Shown: piece after piece, positions 1 through 64,000 of the stretch
Layout of the letters: each line of letters starts with the position of its first letter
Numbering within the stretch: the first letter of the stretch is position 1
Assembly (NCBI GenBank): GCA_963921795.1
Contig: OY997654.1
Location: 779,867 to 843,866, forward strand
Length of the DNA stretch: 64,000 nucleotides
Direction of reading: 5' to 3'
From: Nannobrachium achirus
Taxonomy: Eukaryota > Chordata > Actinopteri > Myctophiformes > Myctophidae
Position numbers and translations under genes: made by a program
The notes under the pieces: model-generated
The model's database searches: none
Told to the model about the DNA's origin: nothing
Seen by the model: only the letters and a program-made list of their open reading frames with translations

Positions 1-714
1 ACTTTACAAACCATACATTAACTATGTCAGCTCTATAGGCTATATGTCTACATTTTGGCTTTTTGAAAATAGCCGATCTACAATCTCGCAATGCCTTGAT
101 GCAGAGGTCTTCAACAGGGGGTCCGGGACCCCTAGGGGGTCCTCAGAGTTACTGCAAGGGGTCCTCCAAATCATTGTGTGATAGAAAGAAAAGAAAATCT
201 CCTTTTTAGCCAGATTCTTAACCAGATTCTGAGAACTTTAGCCAACAATAGCAGATCTAAAAGCGCGAGGCGTTGTGAGCTTGTAGATCAGCTATTTTCG
301 GCAAAGAGGTTTGGTGTAGAGGGGAGAAGTAGGCATTACGGTTCAAGTTGTTAAATATCTCAAAACACAAATTGACATGAATCTAAAACACACTAATGAT
401 TGTGCTGTCAAACAATGAAACGATATGCCATGGAATCTATGACAAGGTTGTGGCTTGATGCATTAGTGAGCTTAGATCTGCTATTTTCAAATGATTTTTT
501 TTAATACACTTTGAACTTGTGAAAAGGGACATTCTGCACAATAGTAGCCTACTTTCTACTTTTGGTACTTTAACTACATTTTGATACCAATGTTGTAGCC
601 TACTTTTGCTCCAGACCTACATTTCCAGACAAAAATTCCAGACATTTACTTGTAACAGAGCATTGCAGTATTGATACTTTTAAGAATGTGAGTAGCCTAA
701 TTTTTCCACCACCG
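1..714 (-). mobile_element. hAT-like MITE family 1, reverse copy, interrupted
   Basis: This copy carries the repeated ACTTGAGTAAAAG-type units of family 1, whose intact copies have CAGTGGTGGAAAAAG-type ends. It is in reverse orientation, ending at tttttccaccacc (about 714). The window begins inside it. Its central palindrome is split: left arm about 64-95, right arm about 460-491, separated by a family 2 element at 102-452. It lies immediately upstream of the tsc22d3 promoter. Confidence 0.75.
102..452 (+). mobile_element. hAT-like MITE family 2, nested in family 1
   Basis: It starts CAGAGGTCTTCAAC, matching the family 2 end CAGGGGTCTTCAAC. Flanks CCTTGATG (94-101) and GCTTGATG (453-460) agree in 7 of 8 bases, like a hAT 8-bp target duplication. 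The right end has diverged. A second copy of the palindromic module sits inside at about 245-305. The insertion point is the loop of the host element's own palindrome. Confidence 0.7.
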
Positions 715-773
715 AAAGTAAAGAGGTGACCCTGTGTTTCTTTGTGAACATAAGGTTACCAGTTGAGTTTGTT

Positions 774-1134
774 TTGTTTATTTGTTGGAGTTCGGGGCGG
801 AGTTGAGTTCAGAGGGAGGGCAGAGGAAGGGGAAAAGATCATGCCAGTCCGCTCATTTGACTAATATATTCACGCGTCAAATGACGCGGGGGACAACGGC
901 TCGTTTATATTGCTGCCGGGTGCAGAAAATAGCATCAGTCTTCTGAAACCAACGAAGCTCACGCATCACACCCGACACTGCACTAGCACTCAAACCTGAG
1001 TTACAGTGCATCGTGATCTGAGCTGATCAGCAACAGAAAGAAAAAGAAAAAACACCCCGGATCTATTATCTTAGGTGACCCGACCGTTCGCAAGCGTGGC
1101 GAGAGGTATTATCCAAACGAGTCTGGTACTCGAG
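774..1134 (+). promoter_or_regulatory. tsc22d3: tsc22d3 proximal promoter and 5' UTR
   Basis: This is the repeat-free block between an upstream hAT MITE (ending about 714) and the start codon. Visible signals are a forkhead-type site TTGTTTATTTG at 774-784, inverted CRE half-sites CGCGTCA (873-879) and TGACGCG (882-888), and a TATA-like TTTATAT at 904-910. The last would place a start site near 935. FoxO and cAMP input fit what is known of GILZ promoters. No full glucocorticoid response element was recognised. Site functions are inferred from motif resemblance only. Confidence 0.5.
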
Positions 1135-1262
1135 ATGAGCACGGAGATGTTCGCCGCCAAGACACCCATGGAGGTTGCCGTCTACCAGTTGCATAACTTC
1201 TCCATCTCCTTCTTCTCGTCCTTTTTGGGCGGAGATGTGGTGTCGGTCAAACTTGACAACAG
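1135..1262 (+). CDS. tsc22d3: tsc22d3 coding exon 1
   Basis: This exon codes for residues 1-42 and two bases of Ser43, ending AACAG before the donor gtaaat. The 5' UTR runs upstream to about 935. The N-terminal block is the short GILZ-type first exon, so this promoter makes the short isoform. Longer TSC22D3 isoforms would need first exons upstream of the window. Confidence 0.93.
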
Positions 1263-63199: not shown

Positions 63200-63369
63200 G
63201 GGTGCCCACACACCAACATACCTATGAGAGTGGAACCCACATTCCGCCAATGCATTTCAATGATAATGGAGCGGTTTCATGCCAGTAGAGGATTTCTGCA
63301 AAAAACGCTCCATTCTCATTGAAATGCATTGACGGATTCCACTCTAGGTATTTTGGTGTGGCTGCAGCC
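63200..63369. mobile_element. TTA-flanked Harbinger-like MITE, unit 1
   Basis: Foldback starting GGGTGCCCACACACC, with ATGCATTTCAATGA in both arms, flanked by TTA at 63197-63199 and 63370-63372. A 3-bp TTA target fits PIF/Harbinger elements. Its right end (GGTGTGGCTGCAGCC) has diverged. Confidence 0.8.
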
Positions 63370-63372
63370 TTA

Positions 63373-63531
63373 GGGTGCCCTCACACCAAAATACCTAGAG
63401 TGGAATCCGCCAATGCATTTCAATGAGAATGGAGCGTTTTTTGCCAGTAGAGTATTTCTGCAAAAAACACTCCATTCTCATTGAAATGCATTGGCGGATT
63501 CCACTCTAGGTATTTTGGTGTGTGGGCACCC
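63373..63531. mobile_element. TTA-flanked Harbinger-like MITE, unit 2
   Basis: GGGTGCCCTCACACCAAAAT and its inverse are flanked by TTA at 63370-63372 and 63532-63534. Removing both units and one TTA restores the family 1 sequence CTCCGTTACAAGTAAAAG. Confidence 0.85.
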
Positions 63532-64000
63532 TTACAAGTAAAAGTCTGGAATTCAAAATGTACTTGAGTAAAAGTACGAAAGTATTGGCATCAAAATGTA
63601 CTTAAAGTACCAAAAGTAAAAATACAAAATTTGAAAGTAGCAGATCTACAAGCTCACAACGCGTCGCATCGCGACGCGTTGTGAGCTTGTAGATCGGCTA
63701 TTTGCAAATAGCCACGGTATAGGCTAAAGTGCATTAATGTATGCTTTATAATATAATCATTTATATCTGCAAAGTAACTAGTAACTTAAGTTTTCAAATA
63801 ATTGCAGCGGAGTAAAAGTACAATATTTGGATCCGAGATGTAGTGGAGTAGAAGTAAAAGTACTGAAAACTGGAAATACTCAAGTAAAGTGCAAACACCT
63901 CAAAACTGTACTTAAGTACAATACTTAAGTAAATGTACTTAGTTACGTTACACCACTGAACCTCTCCCACTGACCAGGACCTGCATGGGAAAAACCAGCT

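Follow-up and report, generated by a model that had tools for sequence, protein, structure and literature searches.

The 64-kb window, i.e. the whole stretch of 64,000 nucleotides that was analysed, contains a palindromic sequence some 75 bp long, TGAAAATAGC-nGATCTACAAGC ... GCTTGTAGATCn-GCTATTTTCA, which was found by profile search in 32 places at E<=1e-3. This hairpin, here called the module, has sharp ends and lies in at least eight contexts, and in four of the hosts the host's own ends and target duplications were identified. Our preferred reading, held with moderate confidence, is that the module is a hairpin MITE resembling Made1, which has become nested in other MITEs and has been multiplied by them. 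We infer that the hairpin transposed by itself, that TA was its target, and the order of the events.

The palindromic module and its copies

The core 11-mer of the module, with at most two mismatches, was matched 62 times in the window, compared to 14.8 +/- 3.8 times in 100 shuffles. A sequence profile seeded with 14 module copies gave 36 non-overlapping places at E<=1. The number fell to 32 when the threshold was E<=1e-3 and to 23 when it was E<=1e-10. As all 14 seeds were among the 32 places at E<=1e-3, 18 of these places were independent finds. In the control, ten dinucleotide shuffles gave 23 matches in total at E<=10, the best of them at E=1.6. We give next to no credence to a chance likeness of unrelated palindromes. 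A covariance model alone also accepted unrelated hairpins (e.g. 55301-55394), and for this reason it was not used for the counts; chance is nevertheless refuted by the 18 non-seed places and by profile matches reaching E=2.7e-26 (seeds counted in), compared to E=1.6 at best in the shuffles. The sequence-only reading, which had described a palindromic module shared by several transposon families, was borne out: seven hosts could be defined, to which one or more further contexts are added, and the palindrome was present in all eight of the copies which it had called clean.

When modules from different hosts were aligned together with 25 bp on either side, the identity between hosts climbed abruptly at TGAAAATAGC and fell after GCTATTTTCA. 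The agreement between hosts is therefore confined to approximately TGAAAATAGC-GCTATTTTCA, and the module is a defined unit of about 75-77 bp. Single-stranded DNA folds of seven module copies had predicted energies from -21.7 to -51.5 kcal/mol, with z from -6 to -20.

The module reached the gathering score of no Rfam family. Scans of prokaryote contigs turned up a palindrome in one Desulfamplus contig, which was judged to be due to chance because nothing else in that contig matched the window at E<=1e-5. Exact-pattern scans gave nothing for the module in other prokaryote genome contigs, and nothing for the module or for a piece of host B in viral contigs. None of six module strings was present in the open-licence literature searched.

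The copies are given below by host. T is a TA-flanked MITE, A to D are repeated families (A being a hAT, hAT-A), E is an undefined context, F is an element with a central hairpin of its own and hAT-G is a hAT that carries T.

36459..36535, + strand: best whole module, a 77-bp palindrome, in T (fold -51.5 kcal/mol, z -19.9)
27926..28002, + strand: module in T inside hAT-G copy 1 (27680-28225), from the profile and the terminal-repeat search
54441..54517, - strand: module in T inside hAT-G copy 2 (54197-54764), from the profile and the terminal-repeat search
5524..5600, + strand: module in T
7786..7862, - strand: module in T
16917..16993, + strand: module in T
20592..20668, - strand: module in T
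24265..24317, + strand: module in T, with a central deletion
27306..27371, + strand: module in T, with a central deletion (start set by hand; profile match 27346-27371)
30848..30924, + strand: module in T
42600..42677, - strand: module in T
45994..46197, + strand: T copy from which the module has been lost; a perfect palindrome of 11 bp (46104-46129) extends into the flank of this copy
10252..10320, + strand: module in hAT-A 10114-10624, TIR CAGGGGTCTTCAAC, 8-bp duplication with one mismatch
51227..51299, - strand: module in hAT-A 50977-51449, exact 8-bp duplication GATTACTG
2766..2792, - strand: half module in hAT-A 2599-2922, duplication with one mismatch
22107..22160, + strand: module in hAT-A, with a central deletion
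247..300, + strand: module in the hAT-A copy that interrupts a B module
64..98, + strand: left half of the B module split by hAT-A
457..489, + strand: right half of that B module; the hAT-A insert is bracketed by CTTGATGC
13959..14025, + strand: module in B
21667..21745, - strand: module in B
63632..63706, + strand: module in B
16214..16287, - strand: module in C
29723..29786, + strand: module in C, shortened
34050..34111, + strand: module in D
26371..26425, - strand: module in D, one arm shortened
49958..49994, - strand: D-type module core in element F 49650-50120 (profile E=0.53 only; identified by its D flank)
23457..23531, + strand: module in the undefined context E, the palindrome extending beyond the module
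29184..29258, + strand: module whose context is undefined and, by eye, may be that of 23457
3269..3345, + strand: module in a complete hAT 3091-3475, TIR TAGGGCTGTCACGA, duplication CTCAACAT
57765..57815, + strand: shortened, off-centre module in a complete hAT 57707-58052, TIR CAGTGTTGATTTCG, duplication GTTCGGCC
5741..5821, + strand: module, host undefined
22700..23160, + strand: relative of host D that lacks the module, not a precise empty site

Hosts, nesting and target sites

Hosts were defined by clustering of the flanks (module masked, 150 bp on each side, E<=1e-4) combined with a scan around each module for terminal repeats flanked by 8-bp duplications. Seven hosts were defined in this way: the MITE T, the families A, B, C and D, and the single hATs at 3091-3475 and 57707-58052. 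The E pair (23457 and 29184) adds one or two contexts, and G (reached via T), F (a chimera) and 5741 would come in addition to the eight. The flank clusters consisted of T, A together with B, C, D, and single contexts, the link of A to B being due solely to the A copy seated inside the B copy at 64-489. The places at 5741 and 56888 were not counted as T, since they clustered through overlap with a neighbouring T or through a 23-bp match.

Once the module was masked, no two hosts matched better than A and C (E=0.003), all other pairs having E=0.01 or worse. Matches below 1e-6 within a host were most frequent in T (24), followed by A (14) and B (6), with one each in C and D and none in the E pair. 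The hosts had been called unrelated, and this agrees with the lack of a clear match between the flanks of different hosts, although the ends of A and C may be distantly related. It had also been claimed that the module sits at the centre of its hosts. This was an overstatement: in the eight elements measured the midpoint of the module ranged from 0.24 to 0.61 of the element length, and the description is thus only roughly true.

Complete elements, i.e. those having terminal repeats and an 8-bp duplication with at most one mismatch around the module, were obtained for hAT-A (three), for hAT-G carrying T (two) and for the hosts of the 3269 and 57765 modules (one each), and these four hosts accordingly have the 8-bp duplication and TIR of hATs. 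For B, C and D no pair of ends with TIR and 8-bp duplication was established. B and D have hAT-like starts only, CAGTGGTGG in two B copies and CAGGGGTTCTC in one D copy; a third B copy ends with CCACTG. T has TA flanks and the ends ATCGTCACTG, unlike the hAT hosts.

The hairpins at 23425 and 29170 had been listed as stand-alone. Both carry the module, but the flank search gave no match between them and blast did not join them; a possible relation was seen by eye only. At 23457 the palindrome continues past the module and at 29184 it halts near the module edge.

That all hosts derive from one module-bearing ancestor, the module having been held by constraint while the rest diverged, appears quite improbable. 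Several of the hosts are hATs, and the weak match of A to C (E=0.003) lies near their ends, as such a descent would allow. Against it, the flanks of different hosts show no clear match, T has a different signature (TA flanks and unrelated ends) and the 57765 host carries its module off-centre. Already from the sequence it had been held that shared descent could not explain the pattern. Flanks without a clear relation, sharp boundaries and founder modules differing for the most part in both arms at once support this in so far as shared descent is a poor explanation.

Nesting with composite amplification is seen one level up, where the module lies in T and T lies in hAT-G. In both hAT-G copies T occupies the same position, and the two copies can be aligned from end to end, with duplications of their own that differ; the composite was therefore formed once and then moved by its outer ends. 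A second case of nesting involves the sequences at 64-98 and 457-489, which look like partial copies. They are the two halves of one B module split by hAT-A. The inserted hAT-A copy (103-453) carries a module of its own and lies near the loop of the B module, with CTTGATGC at 95-102 and 454-461; its right terminal repeat was not recognised in the terminal-repeat search. This one case raises the question of whether hATs prefer hairpin loops.

TA was directly present on both sides, at one offset, in the 3269 element and in 10 of the 11 copies of T, copy 27306 departing with TT on its right side; this makes two of nine hosts or contexts. In A, B, C and D there was TA near one edge only, and in 5741, 57765 and E there was no TA within 4 bp, both judged by eye. 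Palindromic flanks of C were considered as a sign of TA insertion and were dropped once the orientation had been corrected. By eye, none of 28 rows had an 8-bp duplication at the module's own ends, as a hAT would have, and a free-standing copy of the module with a clean duplication was likewise not recognised anywhere in the 64-kb window. Module-free versions of the hosts had been proposed as support for mobility. F provides such a version and D does so imperfectly, but there was none for any other host and no precise empty site was found in the window. Neither a transposase nor a longer relative with the module ends (TAGTGAAAATAGC) was found in the 64-kb window, and a Pfam search of 9 of the 24 open frames of at least 120 aa, picked by hand, gave no transposase.

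According to our preferred reading, the module would be a complete, tiny palindromic MITE of about 75-77 bp, its arms measuring some 36 bp and its loop some 3 bp, with the ends TGAAAATAGC; it would probably target TA, and an unseen transposase would have mobilised it. At separate times, members of the hairpin family would have inserted into several hAT families and into the TA-MITE. Composites with working ends would then have been multiplied through the terminal repeats of the host, the hairpin being carried along.

The window is animal DNA; it also has long CA repeats and is dense in small DNA transposons, and these two features suggest a fish as the likely source. Part of a TSC22 domain is encoded by 3528-3638 (Pfam E=4e-19; solved relative 1dip), and these codons lie about 50 bp past the end of the hAT carrying the 3269 module. 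Inverted repeats of 130-141 bp are present at 35029-35625, 32428-33019 and 56135-56708, with inner inverted repeats in some elements (I1, I2, I4, I6, I11). At 13527-13809 two 133-bp arms of 92% complementarity form an inverted repeat around a spacer of 17 bp, and at 63298-63532 three alternating inverted units of 73 bp lie side by side (I8, I10).

Symmetry of the arms in founder and resident modules

The consensus modules of A, B, C and T, of which those of A, B and C were built from few copies (4 for A, 3 for B and 2 for C), differed in both arms at 38 pairs and in one arm at a single pair in six comparisons; tied or gapped columns were skipped, and some one-arm differences are lost with the tied ones. 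When D (three copies, with 49958 misaligned in one arm) and 3269 were added, so that six of the nine host consensus modules were covered (E, 5741 and 57765 being left out), there were 71 both-arm and 46 one-arm differences in 15 comparisons. Part of the one-arm excess of D and 3269 is private decay, since there is only one copy of 3269, and D is noisy. Fully paired positions in both modules accounted for 56 of the 71 both-arm differences, and 20.5 both-arm differences would be expected for independent arms. Among 16 copies, chosen by hand and including five from T, two-sided changes were present at 23 of 42 pairs (17 of 36 within the module), a number reached in 0 of 500 shuffles, with the structure taken from one T copy and shuffles that ignore relatedness.

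The copies residing in T behaved differently from these founders. Compared to the T consensus, 11 copies had 22 departures in one arm and one in both, pairs with a non-complementary consensus being skipped. When T copies were compared with each other, 203 one-arm and 42 both-arm differences were counted (13.4 both-arm expected), and 11 of the both-arm differences were fully paired. We think that the both-arm excess in these comparisons comes mainly from one mismatched A/C position. Largely symmetric differences between founders, together with mostly one-armed decay in T, disfavour co-descent of the hosts, which predicts one-armed decay between founders as well, and favour repeated entry of a palindromic unit. 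In our reading, near-perfect palindromes enter the hosts and then decay there, which fits an active palindromic element rather than inheritance through decaying hosts. Arm symmetry in the active lineages would persist through copying from arm to arm, for example by quasi-palindrome template switching.

The A/C position lies beside the core. Members of several hosts carry A in one of the arms and C in the opposite one, and the position is unpaired in 8 of 16 rows. As this mismatch has been inherited across transfers, the arms are not fully rebuilt each time. A is on the left in the T copies 7786, 27926 and 54441 (of which 27926 and 54441, carried by the two hAT-G copies, do not count as independent), and C is on the left in 16917, 20592 and 42600. 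Since the orientation differs among T copies, it seems that the hairpin has flipped within T. A recurrent GACAATC variant was considered as a sign of exchange between hosts and was dropped, as CpG decay could yield part of it.

The divergence of T copies bears on whether the hairpin has been held by constraint, as descent from one module-bearing ancestor would require. Over all aligned sites the module had a divergence of 0.088, compared to 0.122 and 0.131 in the flanks, and with CpG-like sites excluded the values were 0.067, 0.101 and 0.116. When gap-adjacent columns were removed, the difference was 0.089 versus 0.116 for all sites (p=0.13) and 0.072 versus 0.096 without CpG-like sites (p=0.21). 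The gap between module and flanks is not significant after this filtering, and selection on the hairpin is thus neither needed nor excluded.

The same measurements concern a functional cassette, which might act as a transposition enhancer or a small-RNA hairpin and would have been recruited repeatedly and selected inside transposons. The very stable predicted fold, the two-sided changes between copies and the lower divergence of the T module before filtering would be in line with such a role. However, T copies readily lose pairing (22 one-arm changes against one compensated change), several copies have central deletions and Rfam contains no family at the gathering score; we regard such a cassette as highly improbable.

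Several observations count against simple nesting, among them the structure of one F element. In the copy 49650-50120 the left hairpin arm of F, which is kept at least partly in three other F copies, has given way to a D-type half module accompanied by roughly 30 bp of D flank (identity at 45 of 49 bp). The block substitutes for part of F's own hairpin rather than being simply added, and this looks like exchange. Family F (14740-14990, 28490-28970, 54960-55450 and 49650-50120) has a GC-rich central hairpin of its own (e.g. 55306-55389), which was unmatched by the module sequence profile. In the T copy without a module, the palindrome at 46104-46129 is a perfect one of 11 bp with a 4-base loop and reaches the host flank; it is a possible scar of fold-back template switching. 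Both the F chimera and this T copy look like fold-back or template-switch events.

Hairpins could be exchanged without any transposition of their own, if broken or stalled elements were repaired by template switching into the hairpin of another element, the palindrome acting as the join and in this way passing from family to family. In addition to the F chimera and the module-less T copy, the A/C marker flipped between T copies speaks for this, and template switching has been proposed for sequence capture by TIR elements of animals (PMC8277862). On the other hand, the module ends are nearly identical across the hosts compared, whereas joins made by repair should vary, and the A/C mismatch persisting in several hosts shows no routine rebuilding of arms. 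On balance we take such exchange to be the main rival of the preferred reading, tenable but unlikely. Template-switch exchange may act on top of the insertion of a hairpin MITE. It is also conceivable, though doubtful, that the module is a selfish cassette whose ends are not cut by a transposase: the palindrome would stall or break replication and so join template switches, and unrelated transposon families, each with a different transposase, would swap hairpin cores. The module had been proposed to be mobile or exchangeable by itself. Some mobility or exchange is indeed the better reading, but a very small palindromic MITE nested as a passenger covers most of the pattern, and a new kind of exchange would go beyond what the window shows.

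Relation to known systems

MITE families whose internal pieces are shared but whose ends are not pose problems of explanation and classification, and it is advisable to mask hairpin cores such as the module before TEs are sorted into families. A palindrome in at least eight contexts, with founders that differ for the most part in both arms together and residents that do not, provides a natural record of repeated transfer, and whole-genome data would allow nesting to be told from template-switch exchange.

Nested MITEs are common elsewhere. Nested or composite MITEs consist of an element within an element and are co-amplified, as is T in hAT-G. They differ from the present case, in which one short hairpin occurs in at least eight contexts. 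Nested MITEs are known, but one hairpin in so many contexts and with such founders was not met in the part of the literature searched, and no description of a hairpin common to unrelated MITEs was recognised in the open-licence literature searched.

In Pack-TIR elements and in the gap filling or FoSTeST model, TIR elements gain internal sequence by template switching (PMC8277862). The captured pieces dealt with in that account are non-TE sequences with a non-TE parental locus, whereas the module is a constant palindromic repeat and the shared piece is a repeat within this window. In yeast, mutations that extend the identity between imperfect inverted-repeat arms are generally attributed to template switching (PMC3820800), and quasi-palindrome template switching has been reported for yeast and E. 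coli. Angel of zebrafish is a DNA transposon with long inverted repeats and a stem-loop, in which compensatory changes were noted (PMC3636048); it is treated there as an element family of its own and is set beside the module by description only.

The closest described hairpin element is Made1, a human MITE derived from mariner, which has 80 bp, is a near-perfect palindrome in which arms of 37 bp enclose a loop of 6 bp, and is present in thousands of copies (PMC1784062). The module resembles it in size and shape, being likewise a near-perfect palindrome of about 80 bp. For Made1 the autonomous parent Hsmar1 is known, and none is known for the module. Made1 is not spoken of as a passenger in other transposon families in the passages of that paper on the element (PMC1784062), unlike the module, which is carried by several.
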